NCBI GenBank assembly: GCA_944390955.1
Contig: CALXRY010000198.1
Span: 1 to 41,527, forward strand
Source: an uncultured Clostridia bacterium
GTDB lineage: Bacteria; Bacillota; Clostridia; UBA1381
Direction of reading: 5' to 3'
Length of the DNA: 41,527 nt
Part shown: in pieces, positions 7,841 to 30,990 of the stretch
Layout of the letters: each line of letters opens with the position of its first letter
Position numbering within the stretch: the stretch's first letter is position 1
Notes under the pieces: generated by a model
Seen by the model: only the letters and a program-made list of their open reading frames with translations
What the model was told of the DNA's origin: nothing
The model's database searches: none
Translations under genes and position numbers: made by a program

Positions 7841-7859
7841 TTTATTTTCTACTATTCTA

Positions 7860-7890: not shown

Positions 7891-7956
7891 ATATTATAGC
7901 ATAGGACATTGTGCAAATCAATAGGTATATAGATGCTGTTTAGGAGGAATAGCTGA

Positions 7957-9452: not shown

Positions 9453-9462
9453 GGAAATCAAA

Positions 9463-14258: not shown

Positions 14259-14266
14259 TTCTTCAC

Positions 14267-15421
14267 CTATCCTATTGATTGGTTGATAAAGCTTATAGAT
14301 TCCTCTTTTTTTGCATAAAGTATCTTATCTATTTTGTCATAATCCCATTGATAATCGGTTATTGATCCGACTGTGCTTATGTCGACCATTTTATCCTGCT
14401 GCCCTATCAGCTGCAGATAATCCTGCATTCTGAAGTTCAGCTCTGTTGTGTTTATCCGCGAAATCACAAAGAATTTTTTCTTAAAAACAGTCGATAAAAC
14501 GGCACCGTGAAAACTATCTGTTATAACACATTCCGCGTGATGCAGCAGCCATAGCCATTCTTCCGGAGAACAATTCTCCAACCGCAGATCAGCCGCCGTT
14601 ATACTCCCGTCATAGCTTAAATATATAAACGGAACAAATACCGACACAAGACCGTTTCTTTTGCAGAATACATTTATCTGTTCCCAGCTTTCCCACGAAT
14701 CCTCCAAGAGATATACGAATGCATATCTGCAGTTTTCTCCGCCAACGCTTTCTATCTGTTTTGGCTTTTTCTCTATACCTGACCAATCGCTTTCGGATAA
14801 GAGCAGGGTAGGGTCCAAAACATGTTTTGCACGGTCAAAACCGATCTGGTGCAGTAAATCTACAGACTGTGCTTCACGGACACTTACAGCCGAAAAGCTG
14901 CTCAGGTATTTTTTTACGTATCTTTTGTTTTCTTTTGGGATATAGTTGCAGCCGAATGAGGCCGCATACGCTATCTTTTTTGATTTCACGGCATTGGTAA
15001 AATCAAGAAACGTAACGCGGTTTATGATATTGTGGCTCTGCCTCCAAACAATATCAGATCCAACGATAAGAATATCGTAATCCGAATGTTTCAGATCATA
15101 GAAATTATAGGTCTTATCCGAAAGGGCGATATTGCTGTCTGCAAAGGATGTAAACACCTTGGCAAGCTCTTGTCTTAATTCTTTGGCTTTTTCATGGATC
15201 ATGGGCTGCCTGTACCCGCTGATCTTTTTGCGTATTTTCTTTTTTACCGCACCTGTATATGAGGTGATTCTCAGACACGATATCTCATTTTTCCATAGTA
15301 TGGTCTCTATGTCCGCATTGGGGTATTTATCTCTTAAATAATGGTTCAGCGCATATGCCTGAAGAATGTTTCCGTAATTGACAGCGTTTCTGCTGTACAT
15401 GTTGATTATTCCTATTTTCAT
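14267..15421 (-). CDS. Polysaccharide pyruvyl transferase family protein
   Basis: This 384-residue protein opens with IGIINMYSRNAVNYGNILQAYAL, the typical start of the polysaccharide pyruvyl transferase (WcaK/CsaB-like) family. Further family blocks are DYDILIVGSDIVWRQ near residues 114-128, SFHGAVLSTVF near 310-320 and a C-terminal helical tail. Family members add a pyruvate ketal to glycan sugars using phosphoenolpyruvate. Some homologues that sit next to F420-hydrogenase-beta-like genes, as here, have no proven activity, so the reaction is inferred. It lies 23 bases after that neighbour's stop codon and 8 bases before the flippase gene. GGAG is found upstream of the ATG. Confidence 0.85.
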   Translation of the reverse strand: MKIGIINMYSRNAVNYGNILQAYALNHYLRDKYPNADIETILWKNEISCLRITSYTGAVKKKIRKKISGYRQPMIHEKAKELRQELAKVFTSFADSNIALSDKTYNFYDLKHSDYDILIVGSDIVWRQSHNIINRVTFLDFTNAVKSKKIAYAASFGCNYIPKENKRYVKKYLSSFSAVSVREAQSVDLLHQIGFDRAKHVLDPTLLLSESDWSGIEKKPKQIESVGGENCRYAFVYLLEDSWESWEQINVFCKRNGLVSVFVPFIYLSYDGSITAADLRLENCSPEEWLWLLHHAECVITDSFHGAVLSTVFKKKFFVISRINTTELNFRMQDYLQLIGQQDKMVDISTVGSITDYQWDYDKIDKILYAKKEESISFINQSIG

Positions 15422-15444
15422 CTTTCAAACTCCAATATTCCGGT

Positions 15445-16626
15445 TTATCGTAGTTTCATAGCTCTGAGAATCCTGCCTCCGCTGCTGCGTATCTTATTAT
15501 AAACAGATTTTTTTATACTGATTTTGGCATATTTCTTGACGGCTTTGCCAAAATTCTCAGTGCATAATGAATTGAAAAAGTATTCTCGTTTCTCGGGTTT
15601 ATCAACGGATCTGTATGCCGCTTCATTGGGGCACACAGCTCTAACGGCGTCGGTTTCTACCCTTTTTGCATTTACTGAATCGAACAGACCTGCTCCCTTC
15701 TCTGAATTAATAAGCACAAGAGATGTGCCCTTGTTATCGAATAGCTCAGGTACTTGACGTTCTACTCCCCAAAAATCGGCAAGCGTTAAATCGCCTTCTC
15801 TCTTTAGTGATTTGAAATGACATTGATAACATGATCTGCGAAGGGACAGGTTTTGAAGAAATGCCCGCATAAACAGGTCCTTATCTATGGTCTTTATATA
15901 TTCGGAGCCGCCGCAAAAACTCAGCTTTATTGAAAACTTATACCATCCAGATGTTTTGTTTCTAAATTCGGGCAGGATAGTTTTATTGATTTTTGCATTC
16001 TGCTCAGCTTGTCTGTATTCAAGGTATTTTTGCCATACCGACGGCGACGGCACGCCGTGGCATATGATGTCTTGCGTTATAAGATTTTCATATTCCTTTC
16101 CCAAAAAACTTTTTAGCCCACCGATCTGGCACGGAGTGCCGGAAAATAAAACCAACCTGCCGTCCGCAAGCATGGCTTTGGCAGTCAAATATGCGTCGCC
16201 TATCCTGCTTTGTACATACTTTGAACCTCTGAGCTTATAGATATCATTGACTGAATCTATCATTATATGCTTTACATTCAAGTCATCATCAAATGCCGCG
16301 CCAAAAACAACTCCTCCGCGATTGATGATATTTTCGGCCAGCAGCGTGAATATACCGCCGGATGAACTTTTCATCCGTATATTATCATCATCATTTACTG
16401 CCGCAAAAGCCGCTAAGGTCTCATTGCCGTCATATTGCTTAAGTACCGGACAAACCGCTCTGCATTTACCGCATCCGATACACCGATCAAGATCGATTTC
16501 CGGCTGCAAAAAACCTTCCGGATCGGGCTTCATTGATATACATTGCTCAGGACATGCGCCGAAGCAGGCATGGCAGCCGGTGCATTCGCCGATATCACAT
16601 ATAAAATTATTTTTTTTCTTATTCAC
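15445..16626 (-). CDS. F420-hydrogenase/dehydrogenase beta-subunit-like iron-sulfur protein
   Basis: The 393-residue protein begins with two ferredoxin-type 4Fe-4S sites: CTGCHACFGACPEQC and then CIGCGKCRAVCPVLK. The remainder matches the coenzyme F420 hydrogenase/dehydrogenase beta subunit, with SSSGGIFTLLAE, FSGTPCQIGGLKSFL and DIICHGVPSPSVW. Such proteins are common in Clostridia and Bacteroides capsule loci next to pyruvyl transferases; their reaction is unproven and probably redox tailoring of a sugar. The chosen GTG at 16626 has GGAG at a normal distance, whereas the GTG at 16635 has none. These organisms are not known to make F420, so a flavin or ferredoxin electron partner is more likely. 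Confidence 0.85.
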   Translation of the reverse strand: MNKKKNNFICDIGECTGCHACFGACPEQCISMKPDPEGFLQPEIDLDRCIGCGKCRAVCPVLKQYDGNETLAAFAAVNDDDNIRMKSSSGGIFTLLAENIINRGGVVFGAAFDDDLNVKHIMIDSVNDIYKLRGSKYVQSRIGDAYLTAKAMLADGRLVLFSGTPCQIGGLKSFLGKEYENLITQDIICHGVPSPSVWQKYLEYRQAEQNAKINKTILPEFRNKTSGWYKFSIKLSFCGGSEYIKTIDKDLFMRAFLQNLSLRRSCYQCHFKSLKREGDLTLADFWGVERQVPELFDNKGTSLVLINSEKGAGLFDSVNAKRVETDAVRAVCPNEAAYRSVDKPEKREYFFNSLCTENFGKAVKKYAKISIKKSVYNKIRSSGGRILRAMKLR

Positions 16627-16669
16627 CGCATACACTCCGTAAAATTGTTTATGATCCCGTACCGGTCCA

Positions 16670-17848
16670 TTACAGCCCCAACCGCTCTTTAAGCTTTACG
16701 ATGCGTTCGCCTCGGGCCATATCGGCATCATTAAAATGCTCCTTCATGGTCGTCAGTCTGCTGCGTTTGAAAAGCACAACATTAAGTATCCTGTGTATCC
16801 AGCATAACGGCAGCAATGCGGGAGCCTTCCGTAAAATCTTGTATTTATCACGCATAAATTCCATCGGCAAAAAAATCGTATCGATGTAATATTTGTGCTT
16901 TTTTTTCTCCTCTTTGTTTTTATACAGCTCTTCCGATACGACCATCTGCTGTGTCCCCATAAGACCGCTGCCTATCGTATGTGCCGAAAATGCAAGGACA
17001 TCCGCATCATCGGTCTTTTTTTCATTAAACCAGTAATCTACGAGCCCAAGAACTTTATTATGGAAGGTTGTAAGATCTGCTTTCTCGAACAATTCATTGA
17101 TCAGGTCCCAGTCAAGAATATCCTTATATTCGCGCAGATATATCCAAACGTCGAGGTAGCCTCTTATTCCCATGCCGTTGTGCTTGACATGCTTTGCTAT
17201 ATGCAGTATCATAAAGATATAGAAGCTTTCTTTTGTAAACTCATAGCCGTATTTTTTTCCTTCCATCGGTATTATACTGCTCTGGAGCTCGGGGCATATC
17301 TCGATGCCCTTAAAATACGGGACCTTGGGCAGTAATTCATGATGCAGCTCGACCATTACAAAATCACCTATACGGTATGTGTCATGTATAAGCACCTCCG
17401 CATCATATTCGATGGTTTCAAAATCCAATTTATCCATAACAGCCTTAGCTTTGGCTGCATTCCCTTTTCCTATATACACATCTATGTCAGTGGAAGATCT
17501 CAGATTGGGTTCCGGATACAAATGTTTTATGACACTGCCTTTCATCGGCACATATAATATCCCGGCATCTTCAAAGCTGTCGCAGATCAGATCAAGATAA
17601 TACTGCTGCTGTACTTCCACCACAATATATTGATCGTACATCATAGTCAGCTTTTCAACTGTTTGCGGGTCTATCATGCCGAGACAGTTTTGCAGCGCAT
17701 AGTATACTAAATTTGATACATTATGATATTGAGCGAGATTAAATAAAAGCTCCCAATTTATATCATCCGGAACCGTTTCCGGCAGTTCGTTTTTTATTAC
17801 GCATTTCAACAAATAAATAATATATTTGCTGTGCTTGTCCATCGTCAT
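16670..17848 (-). CDS. Nucleotidyltransferase family protein (NTP_transf_5-like)
   Basis: This 392-residue protein resembles the uncharacterised nucleotidyltransferase family PF14907. A helical N-terminal part leads into the nucleotidyltransferase core, with VPMKGSVIKHLYPEP near 98-112 and SSTDIDVYIG near 117-126, whose D-x-D should bind metal. A conserved HHELLPKV segment and a helical C-terminal domain follow. Homologues occur often in exopolysaccharide clusters but have no established substrate. The start at 17848 has AGGAGAAC just before it and lies 8 bases after the capE stop. It could transfer a nucleotide or phosphoryl group to a glycan or lipid; this is a guess. Confidence 0.75.
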   Translation of the reverse strand: MTMDKHSKYIIYLLKCVIKNELPETVPDDINWELLFNLAQYHNVSNLVYYALQNCLGMIDPQTVEKLTMMYDQYIVVEVQQQYYLDLICDSFEDAGILYVPMKGSVIKHLYPEPNLRSSTDIDVYIGKGNAAKAKAVMDKLDFETIEYDAEVLIHDTYRIGDFVMVELHHELLPKVPYFKGIEICPELQSSIIPMEGKKYGYEFTKESFYIFMILHIAKHVKHNGMGIRGYLDVWIYLREYKDILDWDLINELFEKADLTTFHNKVLGLVDYWFNEKKTDDADVLAFSAHTIGSGLMGTQQMVVSEELYKNKEEKKKHKYYIDTIFLPMEFMRDKYKILRKAPALLPLCWIHRILNVVLFKRSRLTTMKEHFNDADMARGERIVKLKERLGL

Positions 17849-17856
17849 GTTCTCCT

Positions 17857-18894
17857 TTACTCTTCATTCAACTGCTCGCGGATGTATTCAAGTGCAGCTA
17901 TTTTGGCAATGACGGCTTCCGTTCCCAGGAGCTCTGTGTTGTTCGAGTTAAACTCCGTCAGAGTATTGCGTTTTTCGTCGCCGTCTTTGAAATACTTATC
18001 GTAATTCAAATCGCGTTCGTCCGCGGGCACTCTGTAGAAACTACCCATATCGATCGCATTTGCACATTCTTCGTTTGTGAGCAGTGTTTCATACATTTTC
18101 TCGCCGTGGCGGATACCGATCACCTTGATCTTGCTTTTGTCCTCCTTGTCAAATAGCGCTTTAACGGCCTTTGCAAGCACCTCAATGGTGCAGGCAGGCG
18201 CCTTCTGAACCATTATATCGCCGCTCTCGGCATTTTCAAAGGCATACAGTACCAAATCCACAGCTTCCTCAAGCGACATGATAAACCGAGTCATAGACGG
18301 ATCTGTTACTGTGATAGGCTCGCCTTTTTTTATTTGCTCGATCCAAAGCGGGATGACAGAGCCGCGTGAGCACATTACGTTGCCATAACGCGTGCAGCAT
18401 ATGCTTGTTTTATCGGGAGATACCGTTCTTGATTTTGCAACCACCACCTTTTCCATCATGGCCTTTGAGGTGCCCATGGCATTAACGGGATAGGCTGCCT
18501 TGTCGGTAGAAAGGCATATTACCTTTTTAACTCCGCATTCAATGGCGGCGGTCAGGACATTTTCCGTTCCAAGAACGTTAGTCTTTACGGCCTCAATAGG
18601 GAAAAATTCACATGAGGGCACCTGCTTGAGCGCCGCCGCGTGGAATATGTAATCAACCCCATGCATTGCGTTTTTGACGCTCTGAAGATCACGGACATCG
18701 CCTATATAGAATTTGATCTTATCAGACTGCTCCGGATATTTCGTCTGATATAAATGGCGCATATCATCCTGCTTTTTCTCATCGCGTGAGAAAATACGTA
18801 TTTCCCCTATATCGGTATCAAGGAACCGCTCAAGTATCGCATTGCCGAATGAGCCTGTGCCTCCTGTGATCAATAAAGTTTTATGTTTAAACAT
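17857..18894 (-). CDS. capE: UDP-GlcNAc 4,6-dehydratase/5-epimerase, CapE-like
   Basis: The 345-residue extended SDR has the NAD(P)-binding motif GGTGSFG at residues 11-17. Its active-site segment NAMGTSKAMMEK has methionine where most SDRs have tyrosine, as in CapE/FnlA. YGNVMCSRGSVIPLW and VTDPSMTRFIMS are further CapE/FlaA1-family blocks. CapE removes water from UDP-GlcNAc and inverts C5, starting the UDP-N-acetyl-L-fucosamine route. The partners capF and capG are at the end of the operon, split from capE by four genes. Length equals the family norm. The chosen start follows GAGGAGAATCC. Confidence 0.9.
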   Translation of the reverse strand: MFKHKTLLITGGTGSFGNAILERFLDTDIGEIRIFSRDEKKQDDMRHLYQTKYPEQSDKIKFYIGDVRDLQSVKNAMHGVDYIFHAAALKQVPSCEFFPIEAVKTNVLGTENVLTAAIECGVKKVICLSTDKAAYPVNAMGTSKAMMEKVVVAKSRTVSPDKTSICCTRYGNVMCSRGSVIPLWIEQIKKGEPITVTDPSMTRFIMSLEEAVDLVLYAFENAESGDIMVQKAPACTIEVLAKAVKALFDKEDKSKIKVIGIRHGEKMYETLLTNEECANAIDMGSFYRVPADERDLNYDKYFKDGDEKRNTLTEFNSNNTELLGTEAVIAKIAALEYIREQLNEE

Positions 18895-18950
18895 TTTGGA
18901 TTCTCCTCTGCTTTATATGCTTTTATATTTTGCAGTCATTTTTGCATTGT

Positions 18951-18968
18951 GGGATAAATGATTATCCC
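18951..18968. other. Perfect 7-4-7 hairpin between two operon genes
   Basis: GGGATAA-ATGA-TTATCCC lies in the 82-base gap between a glycosyltransferase gene and capE. The gap is longer than most in this operon. On the transcribed strand there is no T-run after the hairpin, so a terminator is unlikely. An RNA-processing or mRNA-stability element separating the inner transferases from the capE part is possible. Confidence 0.4.
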
Positions 18969-18976
18969 GAACACGG

Positions 18977-20044
18977 TCATCTCATACAAGACTTATAAAT
19001 CTCCGTATACTTGTCCGTGACTGCCTCGATGGAATAATTTTTCCTGCAGTATTCATAATTAAAATCCAACCATTCCTGTTTAAATTGTATGGCCTCATCG
19101 ATGCATTCCGCAATAGATTTATACTTAAGAGTAATTACTTTTCCACCTGCTTTTTTTATATCCAATATTACTCCGACATCATTGCATATTACGGGCAGCT
19201 TTGCCGCCATGGCTTCAATAAATGCAATCCCAAAGCCTTCATATACAGATGGGAGCAGGAATACATCTGCCTTGCTGTAATATTCTTCGGTGTTGACAAC
19301 CGATCCAAAGAATTTTACTCTATCAGAAACTTCGGGCCTCAGCCTTGACTTTACGGCAGCAACATATTTTTCATCTTGAGTATCATCTCCGACAATATAC
19401 CATTCTGCGGATTTATTGATTTTCAAATACTCGCATACTGAGTCCGCTGTCTCCAAATAGCCTTTAGCAGAAATGACTCTGCCGACGCTAAGAATAACAA
19501 ATTTGTTTTTTCTGTTGTTTTGAATTTTCACGTATTGTTTAAAATCTATCCCATCATCTATTACATGCACTTTTTTCTTTATGCCGAGTGTATTACGTGC
19601 ATATTCTTCGGCCTGCTTGGAAACGGCAGTATATTCTGTTGTTAATACAGAAAGCATTTTTTCTATTTTTGCATTATAACCGCTTGTGCTGTGCACAGTT
19701 ACGACTGTCTTTATTTTCGGAAGCAGTAGTTTTGTTAATCTTCCGTAAAAATCGGGAGACTGTCCGTTGGTGTGCAAAATATCTATTTTATATTTCTGTA
19801 TTATTTTTTTTATCGATATAACAGAGCTTAGCCTGCCCTTGCCGACAGGCTTGTTCACAGAGACTGTTTCGTATCCGCAGTCTGTTAATTTTTTTTGTAT
19901 TTGCAGCTCCAGAGCCGTTTCAGCCTTTTTCATGCTTATCAGTGTAAACGGTATTGCTCTGCTGTATAACACACCGGCTACATCATACATGAGCTTTTCC
20001 GCTCCGCCAAGATTAAAGCTGTTTATCAATATTCCTATTTTCAT
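18977..20044 (-). CDS. Glycosyltransferase, GT4 family
   Basis: This 355-residue GT-B enzyme starts IGILINSFNLGGAEKLMYDV, the donor-domain glycine-rich loop of GT4 retaining transferases. Later blocks are ILHTNGQSPDFYGRL near 94-108, VVTVHSTSGYN, VIDDGIDFKQY, VILSVGRVISAKGYLET and the C-terminal PSVYEGFGIAFIEAMAAKLPVI, with the nucleotide-binding E-x7-E. It should transfer a hexose or amino sugar onto the lipid-linked repeat unit at the cytoplasmic face of the membrane. Acceptor and donor cannot be read from sequence. It follows the polymerase gene by 20 bases. The codon and base use are AT-rich, like the other transferase genes here. Confidence 0.85.
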   Translation of the reverse strand: MKIGILINSFNLGGAEKLMYDVAGVLYSRAIPFTLISMKKAETALELQIQKKLTDCGYETVSVNKPVGKGRLSSVISIKKIIQKYKIDILHTNGQSPDFYGRLTKLLLPKIKTVVTVHSTSGYNAKIEKMLSVLTTEYTAVSKQAEEYARNTLGIKKKVHVIDDGIDFKQYVKIQNNRKNKFVILSVGRVISAKGYLETADSVCEYLKINKSAEWYIVGDDTQDEKYVAAVKSRLRPEVSDRVKFFGSVVNTEEYYSKADVFLLPSVYEGFGIAFIEAMAAKLPVICNDVGVILDIKKAGGKVITLKYKSIAECIDEAIQFKQEWLDFNYEYCRKNYSIEAVTDKYTEIYKSCMR

Positions 20045-20064
20045 TTTGTATGTCTGCTCTTTCC

Positions 20065-21321
20065 TTATTCATGTTCTATATGATATACCTTTTCTGCCGC
20101 TAGCGCAAATCCAAAGATCAGCCATATAAAATGCAGTGTAACTATTGTGGGAGGGATTATACCGGCTGCCGCAAATATTAACAGTGAAACAAGTATTGCG
20201 GCCGATTCAACATAATATTTTCTCAGTCTGAACTGCGATTTGATGACGAGGAAATAGAGCCTCAAAAACATTATTGTTCCCGGTATTCCGTTTGTCACCA
20301 GCATTTCTATCCAGAAATTATGTATTGCTAAAGTTCGGCTTGCTCCGTATGCGTTTTCGATAACTCTTTCGGCAGTACGAAATCCCGTACCGAGAAACAG
20401 CGAGTCTGGCATGACGGATATCCCTTGCCTCATCAATTCCCATCTTCCTTCATCGGCTTCCGTGTCTCCGACTATTCCCTCCAACAGTCCGGAACTTTCA
20501 AGCTGATCCCATATAAAATCATAAAACACATAATATAGACATATAGCAAGCACAGCAAGTAAAATCATGCCAAACATTTTTTTTGATAATTTCGAAGCGA
20601 TAAACATAGGTGACAGTATTGTTGAAAATACAATAAATGTTATCGCTCCTCGTGAACCTGTCGCAAATGCGACATATATTGCGATCATACACCATATCGC
20701 ATATTTTATTTTGGAAAACTTTACGCCTTCACGGAGGAACACGAGTCCGTATCCGGCTCCGATCAGCATGGCAACGCCTATGTTGTTCGGATTAAACAAA
20801 AAACCTGTCGGGTACTTGCTCAATTCAGTAATTGCCCATTCGGAGCGCGGCATTGAATAAATATAATTATTTGATATTAAATGCTCACCCGTGAGGTATT
20901 CATATATTGCTACGACCATGGTCATAAAAATGCCGAGCATATATATTTTTATGTAATTATCGAGATCTTTTCTGCTGTCTGTATAATAATATATAAAATA
21001 TATCAATGCTATGTTTATAACAAATGTGATCTGTCCGTCTACCCACATAGATATATCAGGTGTAAAAATTACTGTGATCATATCAAACAAAACAAATGAT
21101 ATGAGAATATTTTTGTATTTTTGCATAACCTTCAAATGCGGTGTCTCTTTTTTATGCCTATTCTCATAAATTATGTGTATTACAGCAAACAGTATAAACA
21201 CCAGTCTAAAAAGGTATATAGATGTTCCGCCGGCACTGAATATCTGAAATGACGATCCGAAAAAAGTTGAAAATATCAATATCATCAAACAAATACTCAT
21301 GCGTTTTTTTGATCTGCTCAT
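20065..21321 (-). CDS. wzy: Wzy-type polysaccharide polymerase (O-antigen ligase domain)
   Basis: The 418-residue membrane protein has about ten to twelve hydrophobic helices and a large extracytoplasmic loop around residues 280-340. Segments such as YPTGFLFNPNNIGVAMLIG, ATGSRGAI and GTGFRTAE (the R-G and G-T-G blocks of the O-antigen ligase/Wzy fold) support polymerase function. It should join flipped repeat units on the outer face of the membrane, working with the Wzx flippase. It is among the most AT-rich genes in the window, as is common for polymerases. It overlaps neither neighbour, but the gap to the GT2 gene is only 2 bases. Ligase activity cannot be excluded on sequence. Confidence 0.8.
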   Translation of the reverse strand: MSRSKKRMSICLMILIFSTFFGSSFQIFSAGGTSIYLFRLVFILFAVIHIIYENRHKKETPHLKVMQKYKNILISFVLFDMITVIFTPDISMWVDGQITFVINIALIYFIYYYTDSRKDLDNYIKIYMLGIFMTMVVAIYEYLTGEHLISNNYIYSMPRSEWAITELSKYPTGFLFNPNNIGVAMLIGAGYGLVFLREGVKFSKIKYAIWCMIAIYVAFATGSRGAITFIVFSTILSPMFIASKLSKKMFGMILLAVLAICLYYVFYDFIWDQLESSGLLEGIVGDTEADEGRWELMRQGISVMPDSLFLGTGFRTAERVIENAYGASRTLAIHNFWIEMLVTNGIPGTIMFLRLYFLVIKSQFRLRKYYVESAAILVSLLIFAAAGIIPPTIVTLHFIWLIFGFALAAEKVYHIEHE

Positions 21322-21323
21322 AT

Positions 21324-22208
21324 TTATTTGCTCCTGTATTTATATCTTATACCGCTAAAAAACGCGGGGAATAACATTATAATAGTTCGTATTATCCCTA
21401 TATTATCAAAAACCTCTTTCAGATTGCCCGCGCGTTTACTAAAATAAACATAGCCGCTCAGCAGCTTAAATTTATTGTACGGTGTCGTTGCTTTTTTGTA
21501 ATCATGATAGCGAGCCAATGCAGCGCCCTTCGGATTCAGTAATTCAAGCTTTGTTGCATTTTTGCTCAGACCGCCTTTTAAATAGTCGCATATATAAATT
21601 ATTTTATTTATCACGATCAGTTTATAGCTTTTGTCAATTTCATCATACGCGATATGTTCTCTTAAAAAGTTCTCACCCTCAAAAACGGGAAACGGATATC
21701 TCGCTATTACATTTGTTCTGAATATAAGCGCCGTATCTCCCTTTTTTTCAAGTTCATATAACTGCGATAAGCCGGCCGTGTTTATTCCGTTGGGAAATTC
21801 TCTGCCTAGGATATGGCCGTGTATATTGCCCCTGTTTGCTACGAATCCGGAAATATCAGACAAATCTGTGTTTTTATATTGTGACCAATATGCTTCTATG
21901 GTCGATACCGCATCATCCGTCAAAAAATCATCTGAATCCACACAAAAAAATAATTCTGTATCACATTCTTTGACAGCCCTGTTATGCGCAGCATGTTTTC
22001 CGCTGTTTTGTTGTGTAATATATTTTATTTGAATTTTATTTTCGTTTATCATATTACGAATTATTTCATCTGTATTGTCTGAAGATCCGTCATTAATAAC
22101 GAGCCAAATAAAATTATGCGATGTTTGCCGTATTAAGCTGTCATATAATGTTTGAAGCGTATACGCTCTGTTATACGTAGGTGTAAATATGGTTAATAGT
22201 TTGCGCAT
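21324..22208 (-). CDS. Glycosyltransferase, GT2 family
   Basis: This 294-residue GT-A enzyme starts LTIFTPTYNRAYTLQTLYDSL and continues with WLVINDGSSDNTDE, the nucleotide-binding region of family 2. The metal-binding DxD-type site is in FFCVDSDDFL, near residues 90-99. It should invert the linkage when it adds a sugar to the lipid-linked oligosaccharide in the cytoplasm. Specificity is not readable. It shares a 1-base TAATG overlap with the preceding GT4 gene, so the pair is translationally coupled. The polymerase gene follows after 2 bases. Length is typical for this class. Confidence 0.9.
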   Translation of the reverse strand: MRKLLTIFTPTYNRAYTLQTLYDSLIRQTSHNFIWLVINDGSSDNTDEIIRNMINENKIQIKYITQQNSGKHAAHNRAVKECDTELFFCVDSDDFLTDDAVSTIEAYWSQYKNTDLSDISGFVANRGNIHGHILGREFPNGINTAGLSQLYELEKKGDTALIFRTNVIARYPFPVFEGENFLREHIAYDEIDKSYKLIVINKIIYICDYLKGGLSKNATKLELLNPKGAALARYHDYKKATTPYNKFKLLSGYVYFSKRAGNLKEVFDNIGIIRTIIMLFPAFFSGIRYKYRSK

Positions 22209-23257
22209 TAAAGATTTTCCTCATATATTTGCTGCATATTGTCAAGGACCGTATCTATAAGATAATGTTCTTTCACCTTTGCTCTGTTAAAACAAGACAT
22301 TTGTCTGCGCCTGTCAACATTATAAATCAAACTCTTCAATGCCGATTCAATCGCATCGTCATCATCAACGGGCACATAGACCGCGCCTTTATCTTCGAGG
22401 ATATCCTCTATGGCTCCGACTTTTGTGGTGATAAACGGAAGCCCGTATGCCATGGCCTCAACGACCACCAACGGAAAACCTTCTGTATGAGTTGGAAAAA
22501 GCATAATGTCCGCCTGCCGATATTCTGCATCTACACCTTTTCTGTCGAGTTCGCCCGTCAGTACAACGTTTTTTGTTCTCGGCATTTCGGCGATCTCTTT
22601 AAATACGTGTCCAACAAGCCTGAACTCAATATCAGGGAATTTTTTTGCGGTGCGGATAATATTGTCACACCCTTTTGTATGCAGAAGATGCCCGACATAT
22701 AATACGCGTTTGATCTCAGGCGCTGTTGCTTTTTCGTTTTTTAAAACTGCGTTATAGCTGTCATCGATAAAATTGGGCACCGTCAAGGTTTTGATTGAGC
22801 AATTATCCTCGACAAAACGTGCCGAAGCACTGTTCAGAGTTATGCATTTTTTGCTTACGGCAAGCATCCTTCTAAAATACTTTTTTTGTATCTCTGAGTG
22901 CAAAGCATAATTCAGATTGCAGTGACAGTGCAGTATGATCTTTTTGTTGAATATATGTATCATCCGCATGAGATAATAATCCCTTATCAGACCGCTGCCC
23001 GAGCATGATGTATTGAAATGCACAATATCATATTGTTTGGTCATTAGGAGTTTTAAGGTTTTTGCCAATATCAGAAGAGATCGTTTGATCTCTTCCGACA
23101 TATGACGTTCGCTATATTTCAGGGATCTTTTGCCGATAACTCCCGTATTCACAACATCTATAGCATTATATCTTTTCATATAACCGATATATTGTTTTGT
23201 CCACATCGCCATACCTCCTGCCGGAGGCGGCAACGGAGACAATAATAAAATTCTCAT
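22208..23257 (-). CDS. Glycosyltransferase, GT4 family
   Basis: This 349-residue GT-B enzyme opens LLLSPLPPPAGGMAMWTKQYI, a GT4-type glycine-rich loop with G-G-M/A. The C-terminal half has VLYVGHLLHTKGCDNIIRTA, FRLVGH and the donor-binding block FPTHTEGFPLVVVEAMAYGLPFI. It should add one sugar of the repeat unit at the inner membrane face. Its ATG overlaps the stop of the WbuB-like gene by 4 bases, so it is translated in a coupled fashion. The donor sugar cannot be assigned from sequence. It differs clearly from the other GT4 gene of the operon at 18977, so they are not recent duplicates. Confidence 0.85.
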   Translation of the reverse strand: MRILLLSPLPPPAGGMAMWTKQYIGYMKRYNAIDVVNTGVIGKRSLKYSERHMSEEIKRSLLILAKTLKLLMTKQYDIVHFNTSCSGSGLIRDYYLMRMIHIFNKKIILHCHCNLNYALHSEIQKKYFRRMLAVSKKCITLNSASARFVEDNCSIKTLTVPNFIDDSYNAVLKNEKATAPEIKRVLYVGHLLHTKGCDNIIRTAKKFPDIEFRLVGHVFKEIAEMPRTKNVVLTGELDRKGVDAEYRQADIMLFPTHTEGFPLVVVEAMAYGLPFITTKVGAIEDILEDKGAVYVPVDDDDAIESALKSLIYNVDRRRQMSCFNRAKVKEHYLIDTVLDNMQQIYEENL

Positions 23258-24453
23258 TCAAGATGCTCCATTATAATTTTATATGTATTCTGCACCGTAT
23301 AGTTTTCCATCAAATATTCATGTGCTTTTTTTCCCATGGAGATGATGTTTTCCCCGAGAACCCTTTCTGCTGTCAATGTAAAGCTGTCGACATTCCCCGC
23401 TTTACACCACCAGCCAAACTGTCCTTCGGTAATTACCTTGCCAACGTCGGTATTTTCGTCGGTGCAGGCCAATACCGGCATGCTGCTTTGCATATACGAC
23501 AGCAGCCGTGACGGAAAATTCGGTATGGTGAACCGCTTGTCCAAAAATATCATACCGACATCACACGATGTAATAAAATCCTCGTATTCCTGCTTCGGCA
23601 GACCGTTTATTAAAAGAACATTTTCAGGGTGCTCCTCGTCTATATACCTTTTCAGTTTCGGATACTCCGTGCCAGTCCCACAAATGACAAAAAACCGATC
23701 CGGTTTGTTTGCATTTGCCCTCAGACACTCAATTACAAACGATATCCCCTGCGGCTTTCCCAGATTCCCGCCGTATACAAAAACAGTTGTATTTAATGGA
23801 ATATTGTATTTTGCCCTCAGCTCTGTTTTTCTGTGCTCATCATGCTTTATATCAACAGGCTCGATGCTGTTCGGCGATACATGTACGATATTTTTATCGA
23901 CAGACGGATTGTGTGCTAAAACATAATTCACGTTGGCCTGCGACATGCAGCCGATATAATCCGACTGACTGTAGAGTTGTTTCTCTTTGTGTCTGAAATA
24001 TTTACACAATATGCCGTCTTTGGAGAACATGCCTAAATCAACGGCGTTTTGTGGGAATATATCCTTGAGCAAAAGATATGTCTTGGCTCCGTCCCGCCTT
24101 TTTATATAATATATAACATTCGCAAATGTTATGGGAGGAGTGGAGTATAACACCAAATCAAATTTTACATTGCCGTAATATTTTTTTATTGCATTTAAAA
24201 ACAGCATCTCTATAGTCAGCGTGCCTATTCCTTTTTCAATTACATTCGTCTTTTGCATGTTTACCGTTCTTACCCGCAGAACGCAGTATCCGTCAAAGTT
24301 TTTGACGCTTGTTGTTTCATGCATCCTGCGTTCGGCCGGAGCTGTGATATATACATTATGACCTTCCTGTACAAACTTTCTTAACAGGTCTGTATATATC
24401 CCATGCTTATCCAAATCAAATATTCCTGACAATGTCAAAAACAAAATATTCAT
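23254..24453 (-). CDS. wbuB: WbuB-like glycosyltransferase, predicted L-FucNAc transferase
   Basis: The 399-residue GT4 enzyme starts ILFLTLSGIFDLDKHGIYTDLLRKF and has the WcaI/WbuB block LLLKDIFPQNAVDLGMF near residue 130, followed by YIGCMSQANVNY. The C-terminal donor site is FVYGGNLGKPQGISF and then SRLLSYMQSSMPVLAC. WbuB is a known L-fucosamine transferase type, and the same operon makes UDP-L-FucNAc, so that donor is favoured. I chose ATG 24453, which has GGTGA nearby; the TTG at 24471 is weaker. It is separated from the acp gene by a gap of about 120 bases with a hairpin, and overlaps the next gene by 4 bases. Confidence 0.8.
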   Translation of the reverse strand: MNILFLTLSGIFDLDKHGIYTDLLRKFVQEGHNVYITAPAERRMHETTSVKNFDGYCVLRVRTVNMQKTNVIEKGIGTLTIEMLFLNAIKKYYGNVKFDLVLYSTPPITFANVIYYIKRRDGAKTYLLLKDIFPQNAVDLGMFSKDGILCKYFRHKEKQLYSQSDYIGCMSQANVNYVLAHNPSVDKNIVHVSPNSIEPVDIKHDEHRKTELRAKYNIPLNTTVFVYGGNLGKPQGISFVIECLRANANKPDRFFVICGTGTEYPKLKRYIDEEHPENVLLINGLPKQEYEDFITSCDVGMIFLDKRFTIPNFPSRLLSYMQSSMPVLACTDENTDVGKVITEGQFGWWCKAGNVDSFTLTAERVLGENIISMGKKAHEYLMENYTVQNTYKIIMEHLE

Positions 24454-24544
24454 ATTTATTTTGTCACCCAATTTTATTATACTTTATTCGGCATATGCCA
24501 TGTAATTTATCAAACACTGCATTATCAGCACCCGTGCAACACAA

Positions 24545-24572: not shown

Positions 24573-24791
24573 TTATTCCATTTTATTGAGAATATCATTT
24601 ACCGTAACAAACTCTTTAATATCTGTGCTTGTTATCTTTTTCCCGAATTCATCGTCAAACATAACTATCACAGACAGCTTGGTCATAGAATCCCAGCAAT
24701 CCAGATCGGCTAACGCTGTATCTGCCTGAAGCTCACTTTCCTCAATATCCATAGTTTCCGCCAATAATTCGATTTTTTCTTCAATAGTCAT
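24573..24791 (-). CDS. Dedicated acyl carrier protein
   Basis: This 72-residue acidic helical protein has the phosphopantetheine attachment motif in LDCWDSMTKLS, with the modified serine at residue 35 (D-S-M). Length and helices fit the acyl carrier protein family. It is not the housekeeping AcpP type (DSLD motif) but a specialised version, as found in secondary and polysaccharide pathways. It sits directly after the FabG-like reductase gene and close to the FabH-like gene, so the three should build a short acyl chain on this carrier. AAGGAG precedes the start. It could alternatively be an aminoacyl-type carrier protein, since an ATP-grasp gene is nearby. Confidence 0.9.
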   Translation of the reverse strand: MTIEEKIELLAETMDIEESELQADTALADLDCWDSMTKLSVIVMFDDEFGKKITSTDIKEFVTVNDILNKME

Positions 24792-24844
24792 TTTTTTATC
24801 TCCTTATACATATAATATTTTTTTCGCATAATCTGCCGATTATC

Positions 24845-25606
24845 TTAGCTTGACAGCCTGCCGCCGTCAAGCACTATGTTTGATCCGGTTATAAATTTAG
24901 CAGCATCGCTGAGAAGGTATGCTATCATATTTGAAACATCAATAGGTTCTCCCAATCCCATATACTGCCGCGACATAATGATCTTTGCATCTTCACTGTC
25001 TCCACTGTTATCCAAAAACTCCTGATAAATATCAGTATTTATCAATGCTGGATTGACTGTATTCACTCTTATTTTATTTCGATGCAGCTCTTTTGCCAAA
25101 CACCTCACTGTAGCATCCATAGCTGCCTTTGAAGCGCTGTAGGCTGTTTTTGTCTGATTACCCTGCTGAGAGGCTATTGATGAGATCCCTACTATGCTTA
25201 AACCACTGTTATAACAATTTCTTTTGGTGATCGACCGTATTATTTCAACAAAAGAGAAATAATTAACGTCCATTACCGCTTTAAGGACATTCGGCTTAAG
25301 CAGCTTCAGAGGTCTGGTGCTGCCTATACCGGCACTGTGCACAAATCCATCCAAGGCTCCGCATTCGGATACGATCTGCTTTATAAAGTGCTCTATTTGC
25401 TCCACATTGCTCAAGTCAAATACATAATATTTATGTCCGCTGCCTTCAAGCGTCTTTTCAACTTCTATCAGCTTTTCCTCACGTCTGGCGGCCATCACGA
25501 TCTTTGCGCCAAGCTTTGAGCATAATCTTGCCGTTTCAGCTCCCATCCCGGAAGATGCACCGGTGATTAAAATTTTTTTGTCTGTTAAATCTACCATATT
25601 AAACAT
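24845..25606 (-). CDS. SDR-family oxidoreductase, FabG-like
   Basis: The 253-residue classical SDR has TGASSGMG at 15-22 for nucleotide binding, the N-A-G-equivalent SAGIG near 91-95, an active-site serine near 142-143, Y156 and K160 (TAYSASKAAMDA). The C-terminal SDAAKFITGSNIVLDGG is typical of FabG-like reductases. A FabG-like enzyme would reduce a 3-ketoacyl-ACP to the 3-hydroxyacyl form. The gene's start overlaps the ketosynthase stop by one base (TAATG), with GGAGGA just upstream, so the two are translationally coupled. Sugar reductase function is the alternative, but the ACP and ketosynthase neighbours argue for acyl-ACP reduction. Confidence 0.85.
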   Translation of the reverse strand: MFNMVDLTDKKILITGASSGMGAETARLCSKLGAKIVMAARREEKLIEVEKTLEGSGHKYYVFDLSNVEQIEHFIKQIVSECGALDGFVHSAGIGSTRPLKLLKPNVLKAVMDVNYFSFVEIIRSITKRNCYNSGLSIVGISSIASQQGNQTKTAYSASKAAMDATVRCLAKELHRNKIRVNTVNPALINTDIYQEFLDNSGDSEDAKIIMSRQYMGLGEPIDVSNMIAYLLSDAAKFITGSNIVLDGGRLSS

Positions 25607-26703
25607 TACATATCCTCCGGTGAATTTATTATACCTTCGGCAAAATAATCATCCGTTTCAATTATTGGGTATATATCTTTTTTATTGATCTTTGCCGACA
25701 AAACGCCCCATGACAATCCCACACCGAAGCCGCACATAAGGATATTCATTTCCTTATCCTCGTCATCGCTTCCGTAAACATCGCATAATGTCAGCGGTAT
25801 GGCGGGCGCGGATGTATTCCCGTATCTGTCAAGGCATAACGGCATTTTATCTGTATCCGCTTTAAGCTTTTTCGCAAGTTGCTTATGTATAAACTGATTT
25901 GCCTGATGAAATGCCAAGCAATCGTAATCTTCAACTGTCGTTCCGTTGTGTTTCATAAATTGTTTTATTGCTTTCGGAACATCTGATATTGTAAAGCTGA
26001 ACACATCTACGCCGTTCATATTGGTATTATATAAAGTTCGTTTATTCCCGTCAGCCCAAATCATCGGCTCGGTCGAAGCATACATATTTCTGAACCCGCC
26101 GGCAGGTGCGATTATTGCTTTATATCCGTTTCCGTCAGAACGAAGCAGTCCGTTTATCTCGCATTCGTCTTCGGTCTTTTCGAGCAATGCCGCGGCACCG
26201 CCGTCGCCGAACAGCATGGCCGACGACCTGTCTTCCGGATTCACCATTTTAGTCATCGTTTCACCTACAATGACCAACGCTTTATCTATATCGGAGCACT
26301 GCATCAGCGCCGCCGCAGACTGAACACAATATACAAAGGCCGAACATCCGAGAGCTATATCGAATGCGGCGCACTCCTTGCTAAGCCCCAATCTTTTATG
26401 CAAAACGCAAGCAGTTGCCGGACGCCTGTAGTCAGTGGAATGAGCCCCGAATATCAATGCGCCGATTTCGCTTCTGTCAATATTTTTTTTATTAATGATC
26501 TCTTCTGCTGCTGCGCAACCTAAGTCCGATGCGGTTTGATTTTCATGAGCGGCTCTATGCTCTGCCACTCCTGTTGTACTTATAAATTTTTCAACCGCTT
26601 CAACGCCGAACGTCTCGGCATAATCCATGCTCTTTATTACATGTGTCGGTACAGCGCACGCCATCGCGGTTATTTTTATATTTTTGAATTTAAAAAACGG
26701 CAT
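25606..26703 (-). CDS. 3-oxoacyl-ACP synthase III-like (FabH-type) ketosynthase
   Basis: This 365-residue thiolase-fold enzyme has the full FabH catalytic triad: Cys120 in AFDIALGCSAFVYC, His266 in FHQAN and Asn296 in YGNTSAPAIPL. It is somewhat longer than housekeeping FabH (about 320), with an extra C-terminal segment. FabH-type enzymes condense an acyl-CoA with malonyl-ACP. Here the substrate ACP is probably the one encoded two genes downstream. The start follows AGGAGG at good spacing, 15 bases after the ATP-grasp gene. Embedded in a glycan operon, it should feed a special acyl group rather than membrane lipids. Other starter units are possible. Confidence 0.9.
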   Translation of the reverse strand: MPFFKFKNIKITAMACAVPTHVIKSMDYAETFGVEAVEKFISTTGVAEHRAAHENQTASDLGCAAAEEIINKKNIDRSEIGALIFGAHSTDYRRPATACVLHKRLGLSKECAAFDIALGCSAFVYCVQSAAALMQCSDIDKALVIVGETMTKMVNPEDRSSAMLFGDGGAAALLEKTEDECEINGLLRSDGNGYKAIIAPAGGFRNMYASTEPMIWADGNKRTLYNTNMNGVDVFSFTISDVPKAIKQFMKHNGTTVEDYDCLAFHQANQFIHKQLAKKLKADTDKMPLCLDRYGNTSAPAIPLTLCDVYGSDDEDKEMNILMCGFGVGLSWGVLSAKINKKDIYPIIETDDYFAEGIINSPEDM

Positions 26704-26718: not shown

Positions 26719-27714
26719 TTAGATCCTTGCTATTACATCCCATTTGTCTCTGCTGCCGGTTGTTTTATCGCTTAATGTACAAAATTGATTTCCACCGCAC
26801 CCTCCGCAATGATTGCCTTCTATCAATACCGGACCGTCCTGAGTCAATGCTATATCCCAACCGACATATGCAACTTGAGGCACTCGGTAGGCCGCTTTTT
26901 TAGCCAATTCCAATATTAGTTTCCATTGAGGCAGCTGTGTCCCTTTTGCTTTAAACCCGGTTACGGGGTGTTCTTTATGACAAATTAATGTGTAATCGGT
27001 TAGATCTGATGTTATAATTCCCGTATTAACATCTACTGTTGCAAATAAATTTCCATCCAATGTGGCATTAACAATATCAGACTTAGTACCAAATGATACT
27101 TTTGCATCGATAAATTCAAAATATCCGTTATGCAAAAAAGTATAAACACGTATGCAGTTGACTCCCTTGGGATAAAATTTATTCATATCCTCGCTTTGAA
27201 CTATCCATTCATCGATGATTGCACTTCCTCGGTCCTTTGTCTCCTCTAATATTGCTTGACAGAAATCATCTGCGGATGCGAACTCATCAATAGAGTATGA
27301 TTTTACTCCTCTTCCTTCGCATTCTTCAAGTGGTTTATAAACTACTTTCTTTATGCTCTTCATAAATTTTTTTATATCATCTTTATCTGTTTCTTTTGTT
27401 ATCATCATGCATTTTCTATTGTAAAGGTCATTGAACACCTTTGAAAATATATACTTATCAAGAAATATCACATCTTCATATTTTGAGTCGGATAGCTGAG
27501 ACCGTCTCTTATTGTAAAGCTTTGTCGTAAAGTAAGTTTTTTTATCACGTCTTAGTTTCTTATAAAATCCATAATGATAATATTCCTGCGGGAAAACACC
27601 GTATATGATATAATTATATACCATGTCTATAAAAACACTGATCTTTTTCCTGCTATTCCTTTCGGCCTCTAAACTAATCCATTTTTTTGTGCTGCTAATA
27701 ATAGATGTCACCAT
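26719..27714 (-). CDS. Sugar-transfer-associated ATP-grasp protein
   Basis: The 331-residue protein resembles the sugar-transfer-associated ATP-grasp family (PF14397-like). ATP-grasp features visible are the lysine in VVYKPLEECEGRGV near residues 120-133, the acidic strand IIDEWIVQ near 164-171, and the metal-binding end VGWDIAL followed by VLIEGNHCGGCGG near residue 308. ATP-grasp enzymes join a carboxylate to an amine or thiol through an acyl-phosphate. In this operon it could attach an amino acid or other acid to a sugar or to the adjacent carrier protein. The N-terminal 60 residues are basic and AT-coded. The gene lies 10 bases from the PglD-like gene and is AT-rich. Confidence 0.8.
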   Translation of the reverse strand: MVTSIISSTKKWISLEAERNSRKKISVFIDMVYNYIIYGVFPQEYYHYGFYKKLRRDKKTYFTTKLYNKRRSQLSDSKYEDVIFLDKYIFSKVFNDLYNRKCMMITKETDKDDIKKFMKSIKKVVYKPLEECEGRGVKSYSIDEFASADDFCQAILEETKDRGSAIIDEWIVQSEDMNKFYPKGVNCIRVYTFLHNGYFEFIDAKVSFGTKSDIVNATLDGNLFATVDVNTGIITSDLTDYTLICHKEHPVTGFKAKGTQLPQWKLILELAKKAAYRVPQVAYVGWDIALTQDGPVLIEGNHCGGCGGNQFCTLSDKTTGSRDKWDVIARI

Positions 27715-27724: not shown

Positions 27725-28360
27725 CTATAGGTTGTATTTCCTTGCGGGATTGCCCATAACCTTTATGCCTTTACGTATATTGGTCATAATTACACTTCCC
27801 ATCGCGGCATAAACGTTATCGCCAATGTTTCTGCGCGGAGCAACTATACAGCCGCACCCCAAATATACATTATCGCCTATATGCACATTGCCGTTTATGC
27901 TGCATTTCCCCATGACAGAGCAATAATCACCTATCACAGCATCATGGCCGATTGTGGACGGAAGCAATGTTATAAAATCGCCTATACGTATATTGACGGA
28001 CAGCGCCGCATCAGGATAAATTACAGCGCCTTCTCCGATCGTATTAAACTCACCGATACGAGCGCGTGGATGAATAATTGCCGCAAATTTTGCTCCTCTT
28101 GCTTTTAATTTTTCGGCCACGGCCCGCTTGGTTTTGGGATCTGCTATCGCAACAGCAAAATACTCATCCTTTTTGACATCCCACTCGGAAATGCTTCCAA
28201 CAATACTGTAATCGCACTCTATGTTATCGAGCGCATGTGCGTTATCATCTATAAAACCGAGTATATCCCAGGTATGCCCAGCTTGGTTAATATCCTTTAT
28301 CCACTGCAGGACCTCGCGTCCCATTCCTCCGGCCCCGACGATTATTAAATTCTTAACCAT
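27725..28360 (-). CDS. pglD: PglD/NeuD-family sugar N-acyltransferase
   Basis: The 211-residue protein has an N-terminal Rossmann-like nucleotide-sugar-binding region with [10 protein letters not shown] at residues 8-17, followed by a left-handed beta-helix of hexapeptide repeats (about residues 95-200). The catalytic histidine of the PglD/NeuD group is His139 in [11 protein letters not shown]. PglD moves an acetyl group from acetyl-CoA to the C4 amine of UDP-4-amino-4,6-dideoxy-GlcNAc. Its gene overlaps the priming transferase gene by 8 bases, and the aminotransferase gene lies one gene upstream, matching the pglE-pglC-pglD order. The beta-helix could accept longer acyl groups than acetyl; the ACP module beside it makes this worth testing. 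Confidence 0.85.
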
Positions 28361-28982
28361 TTGCTTCTTCCTTTTCTCTGCTTCCCGTAAATTTGCCTAC
28401 CGTCGCATACCCTTCAGCGGATATTCCTTCTTCCTTAACAAATGCCTTCCAGACTGTCAGGAGGATTATTTTTAAATCGCCTATAAATGTAATATTGTCT
28501 ACATATGTAACGTCCCAATTAAACTTCTCTTCCCAGCTGATGGCATTCCTGCCGTTCACCTGCGCAAGTCCGCTCAAGCCAGGTCTTACCTCGTGGCGGC
28601 GGCGCTGTGTTTCATTATATCTCGGCAGATACTCCACAAGCAGCGGCCGTGGACCTACTATACTCATATCGCCTTTAAGGATATTAAACAGCTCGGGCAG
28701 CTCATCAAGACTTGTTTTTCTCAGCAGTTTTCCGAACTTTGTTAGTCTGTATTCATCAGGCAGCAAGTTGCCGTTTTCGTCTCTCTCATCTGTCATCGAA
28801 CGGAATTTGTACATCTTAAATATCTTCTCGTCCTTGCCCGGACGTTTCTGCTTAAAGATAACAGGGCTGCCGAGTTTTATCTTGATAAGCAGTGCTGTTA
28901 CCGCCATAACCGGTGACAGTACTATTATTGCAAGCAGAGATAATATAAAATCCATCGGTCTTTTTATATATTTCGCGTACAT
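28353..28982 (-). CDS. pglC: PglC-like priming phosphoglycosyl transferase
   Basis: This 209-residue protein is a monotopic phosphoglycosyl transferase. An N-terminal re-entrant membrane helix (residues 10-35) is followed by [20 protein letters not shown] and the catalytic dyad Asp93-Glu94 in [23 protein letters not shown] and the [14 protein letters not shown] end-block complete the family pattern. It loads a sugar phosphate onto undecaprenyl phosphate, beginning the repeat unit. The ATG at 28982 is chosen because AAGAGGTG lies 6 bases upstream, and its A overlaps the aminotransferase stop (TGATG). The small size is close to PglC, so di-N-acetylbacillosamine-type sugars are the likely substrate. 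Confidence 0.9.
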
Positions 28983-30109
28983 CAGAAGCACCTCTTGATT
29001 ATATCAATGATCTCGTCATGTTCTTCAGGCTTCATCTGCGGATAAAAATCACTCGGCAGACACAGCCCTCTTGCAAATATATCCTCGCTTATGCTTGTGC
29101 CGTCATCATTATGAGCAAAATAATCGCAGTCCTTATAGAACGGCTGCATATGCATCGGCTTCCAGATAGGACGCGTTTCCACATTCTCCTCGGCAAGCCT
29201 GTCCATGATAGTAAACGGACTGATATTACAGCCCTTATCGATCGTCGCTGCGCTGAGCCAATGATTTGGTTTGGTATCGGCTTCATGCGGCTGCATCGTT
29301 ATCGGCATATCGGCAAAGGCCTCTTTATATTTATTGTATATATTTGTTTTTTGCGACACATGATCCTCAAGCGCTGTCATCTGTCCTCTGCCTATCCCGG
29401 CAACGATATTGCTCATGCGATAGTTGTATCCGAGCTCCTCATGCTGATACCACCGCGCAGGCTCTCTTGACTGAGTTATCCACTTCAATACGGTTTGCAG
29501 CATAGCCTCGTCATTACCGACAAGCATCCCGCCGCCCGAGGTTGTTATGATCTTATTTCCGTTGAATGACAAAATCCCGTATTTACCGAGTGAGCCAAGC
29601 TTTTTTCCTTTATATTCTCCGCCCAATCCTTCGGCGGCATCCTCCACCAAAGGTACATTATGCTCGTTGCATATCTCTGCTATCTCATCCATTTTAGCAG
29701 GTGTGCCGTAAAGGTGTACGACTATTACCGCTTTCGGATGTGGATACTTCTCGAATGCTTTTCTCAGAGCGTTGGGGCTCATATTCCAAGTGTCCGGCTC
29801 GCTGTCAATAAATACGGGTATACCGTTCTCGTAAATTATCGGATTGGCGCTTGCGCTGAAGGTCATCGACTGGCAGAAAACAATATCTCCGCTGCCGACC
29901 CCTAAAGCACGCAGTGCCATATGTATTGCAGCCGTGCCCGCATTCATTGCAACGGCGCCTTTTGCTCCGATGTATTCTTTTATTGTATTTTCAAATTCGT
30001 TTACGTTCTTTCCCAAAGGTGCGATCCAATTGGTGTCAAATGCCTCGCGGACATATTTCTGCTCCTCGCCGCACATACACGGCGAGGAAAGATAGATCTT
30101 ACGCTTCAT
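28982..30109 (-). CDS. pglE: PglE-like UDP-sugar aminotransferase
   Basis: The 375-residue DegT/DnrJ/EryC1/StrS family aminotransferase has the PLP-binding Lys186 in [16 protein letters not shown], the phosphate-contact segment [11 protein letters not shown] near 56-66 and DAAEGLGG near 157-164. In the Pgl pathway this enzyme aminates the 4-keto group of a UDP-4-keto-6-deoxy-GlcNAc. The reading frame is open further upstream, but the ATG at 30109 fits the family N-terminus and lies after the predicted promoter. ATG 30133 is a second option. It heads the 19-gene operon. No PglF-type dehydratase is in the window, so its keto substrate must come from elsewhere or from the CapE-like enzyme. Confidence 0.85.
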
Positions 30110-30326: not shown

Positions 30327-30965
30327 TTAAAATTCTGTTTTACACTCCACCACTTTACCGATTATTGATATTTTATCATTGCGTAAATCGTAGATTTGTA
30401 TTTGATGAACGGGATTATAAGACCGGGGAATAAGCTGCACAATATTATCATCACGCCTGAAATACTTTACGGTGGCATTTTCGTTATTGACCATGACCAC
30501 GGCGATTTCTCCGTTTTCCACCGCGGGCTGACAACGTACGATAAGCAGACTGCCTTCGCTTATATTTGCGGCGTTCATGCTGTCGCCTTTTACCCGCAGC
30601 GCAAAATATTCTGAACCGCCGTTGCGGTCTGTGTAAGTGTATCCCTCTATATTCTGCTCGGCATATATAGGAAGCCCTGCGGCGATCGTACCGAGTATTG
30701 GTATTTCGTGCACCACTGGATCATAAATCTGCATGCCGGACGGCAGCTCGCTGTGGGGATCATCGCTCCAGCCCATTATATAGGCGGGAGAGATCTGCAG
30801 TGCCTTTGAAATATCTTCAATTCGGTTGAGCGGAATTTTTGCTGTTTCGCCCGTCGCATATCTTTGGAGCGCGGATTTTGGTATTTTTGTTCTTTTTGAA
30901 AGCTCACCGTAGGATATACTCTTTTGTTTCATTGTTTTTATAATTCGGTCTGCATGTATACTCAT
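30327..30965 (-). CDS. XRE-family repressor with S24 (LexA-like) autocleavage domain
   Basis: This 212-residue protein has an N-terminal XRE helix-turn-helix (YGELSKRTKIPKSALQRYATG near residues 19-39) and a C-terminal S24 peptidase domain. The cleavage dipeptide is Ala96-Gly97 in TIAAGLPI. The nucleophile is Ser129 in VKGDSMNAA and the base is Lys167 in ATVKYF. Such proteins repress genes until RecA-driven or stress-driven self-cleavage, as LexA and phage CI do. ATG 30965 has a full AAGGAGG site; in-frame codons further upstream lie in the promoter. It is divergent from three secreted-protein genes and upstream of the polysaccharide operon, so either could be a target. Confidence 0.9.
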   Translation of the reverse strand: MSIHADRIIKTMKQKSISYGELSKRTKIPKSALQRYATGETAKIPLNRIEDISKALQISPAYIMGWSDDPHSELPSGMQIYDPVVHEIPILGTIAAGLPIYAEQNIEGYTYTDRNGGSEYFALRVKGDSMNAANISEGSLLIVRCQPAVENGEIAVVMVNNENATVKYFRRDDNIVQLIPRSYNPVHQIQIYDLRNDKISIIGKVVECKTEF

Positions 30966-30990
30966 TTTAGTTGCCCTCCTTGATATACAT

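Follow-up and report, generated by a model that had tools for sequence, protein, structure and literature searches.

The Campylobacter jejuni route to di-N-acetylbacillosamine uses acetyl-CoA as its acyl donor and works without a dedicated KASIII-type beta-ketoacyl-ACP synthase, SDR-type reductase or acyl carrier protein (ACP). Its PglD, PglE, PglF and PglC enzymes, which are discussed in PMC6519341, represent the same sugar-building classes as those encoded at the locus described here. Modules that include such an acyl set are already known from the viosamine island of Pseudomonas syringae and the wfp cluster of Flavobacterium psychrophilum. The P. syringae island (vioA, vioB, vioS, vioR, acp) leads to a glycan sugar with an N-3-hydroxybutanoyl group, deletion of vioR results in loss of the modified sugar, and the pathway proposed by the authors includes a dTDP-N-acetoacetylviosamine intermediate (PMC3927599). 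The counterparts of the island genes in P. aeruginosa PAK are orfA/E/C/D/B (PMC3927599). The wfp cluster contains two KAS genes (wfpC/E), an ACP (wfpD), a reductase (wfpF), a PglD homologue (wfpG), pglE, pglF and genes for L-FucNAc (PMC6519341). In the measured structure of the F. psychrophilum O-polysaccharide, N-3,5-dihydroxyhexanoyl is found on Qui2NAc4N, beside L-FucNAc; the assignment of wfp genes to steps is the authors' prediction (PMC6519341).

We found a comparable gene set on a contig of an uncultured Clostridia bacterium (CALXRY010000198.1), of which the whole analysed stretch of 41,527 nucleotides is referred to as the window. The set lies on the minus strand of the window, inside a surface-polysaccharide run of 19 genes. 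From right to left, the minus-strand order is a LegC/PglE-like DegT aminotransferase (28982..30109), a PglC-like polyprenyl-phosphate sugar-1-phosphate transferase (28353..28991; Bac_transf, 2.1e-64), a PglD/NeuD/VioB-family sugar N-acyltransferase (27725..28360), a sugar-transfer-associated ATP-grasp ligase (26719..27714, 331 aa; PF14397, 1.6e-39), the KASIII (25606..26703, 365 aa), a FabG-like SDR annotated as 3-oxoacyl reductase (24845..25606, 253 aa) and a dedicated ACP (24573..24791, 72 aa). Continuing 3' of the ACP in the same run (12744..24471, minus strand; Pfam) are glycosyltransferases, a Wzy_C protein, a FnlA-like dehydratase and accessory genes including a pyruvyltransferase, together with NTP_transf_5 and FrhB matches and, towards the far end, a Wzx-like flippase. 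FnlB- and FnlC-like enzymes come after the flippase. The intergenic gaps from the aminotransferase ORF through FnlC measure −10 to 101 nt and the genes form one directon. Terminator prediction on the minus strand gave no terminator-like site in the gap between the ACP and the glycosyltransferase, and promoter-like sites, which were as frequent as in shuffled sequence, were given no weight. An earlier note, made from the sequence alone, had placed the KASIII, SDR and ACP ORFs at these positions, which we confirmed. The neighbours that it named (aminotransferase, PglC-like and PglD-like genes) are also present, but it omitted the ATP-grasp gene that separates the PglD-like gene from the KASIII.

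The KASIII matches the Pfam domains ACP_syn_III (7.8e-21) and ACP_syn_III_C (6.3e-23) above cut-off, as well as the NCBIfam KASIII superfamily model PRK09352 (score 250.2, cut-off 249). In an alignment with E. coli FabH, its residues C120/H266/N296 correspond to C112/H244/N274, and the condensing triad is intact. The possibility that this enzyme is the housekeeping FabH was rejected: it scores below the cut-off of the NCBIfam fabH model TIGR00747 (213.2 versus 292.1), it is placed outside the FabH branch in our tree, and the genome (2.79 Mb, 89% complete) encodes one other KASIII. This second KASIII, on contig C4 with an ACP nearby, is the housekeeping FabH and shares 30% identity with the window KASIII. 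As a separate housekeeping FabH and ACP exist, the window set is an extra one. An AlphaFold model of the KASIII alone had a pLDDT of 35 and serves as a basis for neither pocket nor fold claims.

The SDR (Pfam adh_short_C2, 1.8e-52, over cut-off) has Y156/K160 and a TGASSGMG motif, and is 27% identical to E. coli FabG. Its start overlaps the KASIII stop by one base in TAATG. The ACP (Pfam PP-binding, 7.8e-7, over cut-off) has a net charge of −13 and carries Ser35 within a CWDSM motif. These catalytic residues of all three proteins and the TAATG coupling had been pointed out previously; our alignments and motif inspection bear them out. A scan of viral contigs with the SDR as query gave no match.

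The PglD-like enzyme scores 175.3 against TIGR03570, which covers NeuD/PglB/VioB acyltransferases (cut-off 160.8). Its nearest solved chain in the PDB set is VioB (7txp), and His139 is its candidate base. Members of this family with solved structures include acetyl-CoA enzymes. In a tree of 22 rows, the window PglD falls in a clade of eight (93/95) where every locus has an ACP, although in one of them (L107) an AMP-ligase and a weak ACP take the place of a KASIII. On the complete tree the ACP label requires 5 changes; shuffling gave 7.2 on average (p = 0.076), so that clustering by ACP linkage is no more than suggestive. The L107 locus (7177-10068) combines a PglD that is 43% identical to the window's with the AMP-ligase, the weak ACP-like ORF and a GNAT, and apparently represents another way of loading an acyl carrier for the same type of acyltransferase.

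The aminotransferase (DegT, 1.2e-95) scores 369.1 against the LegC model TIGR04181, below its cut-off of 420, and we therefore call it LegC/PglE-like only. Its ORF extends to 30295, but the start is probably at 30109, giving 375 aa. A PglF-like dehydratase of 628 aa on contig C7 could supply the 4-keto sugar to this aminotransferase. The Fnl-like trio is complete within the window, although the FnlA equivalog cut-off is missed: the UDP-GlcNAc 4,6-dehydratase/5-epimerase (17857..18894, minus strand) has TIGR04130 as its best match (520.9, cut-off 730), the FnlB/WbcJ-like reductase (11562..12707, minus strand) has NF047837 (401, cut-off 500), and the FnlC/WecB-like UDP-sugar 2-epimerase (10398..11543, minus strand) exceeds the cut-off of TIGR00236 (222.9 versus 210). 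From these genes we predict L-FucNAc in the same polymer.

Like the viosamine island, the window combines single KASIII, reductase and ACP genes with an aminotransferase and an acyltransferase of the VioB/PglD type in a glycan cluster. It differs in that the island acts on dTDP-viosamine for a flagellin glycan in a Gram-negative bacterium and includes a methyltransferase, whereas the PglC-like and ATP-grasp genes of the window have no place among the seven genes of the island. With the wfp cluster it shares the PglE/PglD/PglF route, a dedicated ACP, KAS and reductase genes, and the L-FucNAc genes; unlike the window, that cluster has two KAS genes, a 3,5-dihydroxyhexanoyl product, an LPS O-antigen as destination and L-Rha genes. 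The nearest complete relatives are two Clostridia MAG loci, L003 and L004, with KASIIIs 73% and 63% identical to the window's, SDRs 70% and 49% identical, and an ACP, a PglD and an aminotransferase. L003 also has the ATP-grasp. Both differ from the window by a second KASIII and SDR, and by RmlA/RmlB-like genes, which suggest that the sugar is dTDP-linked. A literature search for Gram-positive precedents yielded nothing useful.

We consider it likely that the KASIII, SDR and ACP form a dedicated mini type-II fatty acid/polyketide module of a Wzx/Wzy operon, from which the PglD-like enzyme places a 3-hydroxyacyl group, most probably 3-hydroxybutyryl, on a 4-amino sugar. The gene set, its intact catalytic residues, the separate housekeeping set and a recurrent linkage to PglD and amino-sugar genes are observed; we infer the substrates, step order, chain length and use of acyl-ACP by PglD from sequence and context. 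The KASIII would condense a small acyl-CoA primer, likeliest acetyl-CoA, with malonyl carried on the operon's own ACP, and the SDR would then reduce the 3-oxo group. The aminotransferase would provide the 4-amino group, probably on UDP-2-acetamido-4-amino-2,4,6-trideoxyglucose, to which the PglD/VioB-like enzyme, as a presumed user of acyl-ACP, would transfer the 3-hydroxyacyl group. The PglC-like enzyme would load the acylated sugar on the lipid carrier. Reduction may come before or after acyl transfer. The earlier note had read the set as a dedicated 3-hydroxyacyl donor for N-acylation of an amino sugar, a reading that is largely right: it is right in kind, with good support from gene context and the two described systems (PMC3927599, PMC6519341), and such sets had already been described in other phyla. 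In detail it is partly right, since the 3-hydroxybutyryl identity that it favoured stands as the likeliest option only.

To determine how the set is distributed elsewhere, we surveyed Clostridia and Bacillota genomes for KASIII matches (E ≤ 1e-55 to 1e-70) and inspected the genes around them. Excluding the window, 14 related KASIII lineages were counted. Eleven other KASIII loci served as controls; most encode housekeeping FabH, and most lie in the same genomes as the related KASIIIs. An ACP and an SDR occur near the KASIII in 13 of the 14 related lineages, a recurrence of the trio far beyond chance. Nine of the 14 lineages, versus none of the 11 control loci, have a PglD-like gene no more than about 10 kb away (one-sided Fisher p = 0.001, a post hoc test on a small sample). 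The association with PglD/NeuD-like genes that had been proposed as a check was thus found in other genomes, and the control loci led us to reject chance co-location.

Other arrangements were found alongside. In L053 (7660-8259) and L054 (10763-11362), a GNAT acyltransferase takes the place of PglD beside ACP, SDR and KASIII, with FnlA/B/C-like genes in L053. L045 even encodes a FabD-like malonyl transferase of its own. Beyond Bacillota, glycan clusters at Parabacteroides plasmid loci combine an acetyltransferase, an ACP, an AMP-ligase and a KASIII with an SDR; on an Azospirillum plasmid, genes for a KASIII, an SDR and a GNAT lie amid pseudaminic acid genes. Two different KASIIIs and one or two SDRs accompany a PglD-like gene in L003 (7127-11860), L004 (7-4736) and L045 (8220-11366), and further two-KASIII clusters with a PglD-like gene are found in L046 (7112-11000), L047 (7813-10922) and L051 (6974-10036). 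In layout, these Bacillota clusters match the wfp cluster, which goes with 3,5-dihydroxyhexanoyl in F. psychrophilum. Four Clostridium-type genomes (L019-L022; e.g., L020:8386-10429) contain an ACP-KASIII-SDR trio related to the window's without glycan genes. Its neighbours there are condensation-domain/WS-DGAT-like proteins, a MenI-like thioesterase and a PaaK-like ligase. Since the trio occurs there without glycan genes, the trio alone is no proof of a sugar target; it looks like a general maker of short 3-hydroxyacyl-ACP whose target is set by its neighbours.

Regarding the identity of the acyl group, we give 3-hydroxybutyryl about an even chance. The gene count in the window, one KASIII and one SDR, fits the P. 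syringae set and its N-3-hydroxybutanoyl product. Within the 89% complete genome, a search for thiolases detected none and a search for 3-hydroxyacyl-CoA dehydrogenases gave only weak partial 3HCDH_N matches, none of them convincing, so CoA-borne 3-hydroxybutyryl is not evidently available. With no thiolase detected, priming by acetyl-CoA is favoured, and hence 3-hydroxybutyryl. Conversely, the module might make a different 3-hydroxyacyl group if the KASIII were of an elongating type whose primer is longer or polar (a 3-hydroxybutyryl thioester, for instance, or a branched acyl-CoA), with a product such as 3,5-dihydroxyhexanoyl (+130 Da). In the tree, the window KASIII is joined with starred supports to L024, L003_9980, L004_2884 and L046_9883, and L045_9221 attaches weakly; at all of these loci except the truncated L024 a second KASIII adjoins, as in the wfp set that yields 3,5-dihydroxyhexanoyl. 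Moreover, Arg94 of the window KASIII occupies the position of the primer gate Phe87 of E. coli FabH, which limits and sets primer length (PMC3734052). Arg is found at this position in most of the window's clade, including the L003, L004 and L046 relatives; in the group nearest FabH the residue is Leu, and the Leu142 position is mostly occupied by Tyr. The Arg gate and the pairing with a second KASIII mean that the primer might not be acetyl-CoA. Against this stand the single KASIII and single SDR of the window, the failure to find a source of 3-hydroxybutyryl-CoA in the genome, and the existence of single-KASIII sets in the same broad group (L050, L019-L022). We consider another 3-hydroxyacyl group less likely than 3-hydroxybutyryl. 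It is doubtful that an elongation-type KASIII acts as the sole condensing enzyme on a non-acetyl primer, which would give an undescribed acyl group, possibly modified by the ATP-grasp, and would let KASIII number and type predict the ketide units. A glutaryl-type (BioZ) primer was also considered for Arg94 and not adopted, as BioZ uses S84/R147/S287 (PMC8024396) and no correspondence with Arg94 emerged.

The ATP-grasp gene between PglD and KASIII, which L003 also has beside its set, raises the question of whether it belongs to the acyl pathway, with either the sugar amine or the 3-hydroxyacyl group as the site to which an amino acid is coupled, so that an acyl-aminoacyl amide results. We regard this as unlikely, as the gene is missing from most KASIII loci and L110 (6696-10272) has LegC, PglC, PglD and ATPgrasp_ST genes in window order without KASIII, SDR or ACP. 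It is separable from the module, and we did not adopt it as an essential part; its presence beside PglD, PglC and LegC-like genes in L110 suggests that it is probably a separate decoration, possibly forming an amino-acyl amide. A search of the literature on ATPgrasp_ST function found nothing useful. The glycan-free trios of L019-L022, with their condensation-domain/WS-DGAT-like proteins, thioesterase and PaaK-like ligase, could instead mean that the window trio makes an acyl group for a target other than a sugar amine, such as a lipid, a small molecule or an O-acylated position, and that its place in the operon is fortuitous or due to another step. We find this quite improbable: the 19-gene glycan run encloses the window trio, an N-acyltransferase gene lies two genes upstream of its KASIII, and this linkage recurs. 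A further reading takes the ACP to carry aminoacyl groups and the KASIII to transfer acyl groups without condensing them; KASIII-like acyltransferases exist, and an ATP-grasp gene lies nearby. This reading is very hard to reconcile with the intact Cys-His-Asn condensing triad and with a Pfam search that found no adenylation enzyme in the operon, and it would leave the dedicated ketoreductase without a role.

The preferred reading, a dedicated 3-hydroxyacyl module for amino-sugar N-acylation, would extend a route of glycan decoration documented in Pseudomonas and Flavobacterium to anaerobic Clostridia, including gut-type genomes, and this setting is its main interest, together with the contrast in KASIII number. 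The combination of PglD, ACP, KASIII and SDR genes may serve as a signature that predicts unusual N-acyl groups on surface sugars. The split between one and two KASIIIs yields a simple rule, open to testing, for how long the acyl chain is; if the reading of an elongation-type sole KASIII were true, one KASIII would lead to 3-hydroxybutyryl and two to 3,5-dihydroxyhexanoyl across the family.

Three further features of these loci were observed. Directly upstream of the polysaccharide run in the window is an S24-peptidase/HTH repressor-like gene (30327-31019), which may regulate the run. Within the run, genes for an FrhB-like iron-sulfur protein and a polysaccharide pyruvyltransferase adjoin (14267-16635), which suggests that the glycan carries a pyruvyl ketal; L115 has a similar pair. 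Finally, a metallo-beta-lactamase-fold hydrolase adjoins the PglD/KASIII/ACP genes in L023 (3603-4283), L046 (10973-11602) and L048 (7303-7959), and this recurrent protein is possibly an acyl-ACP or thioester hydrolase.
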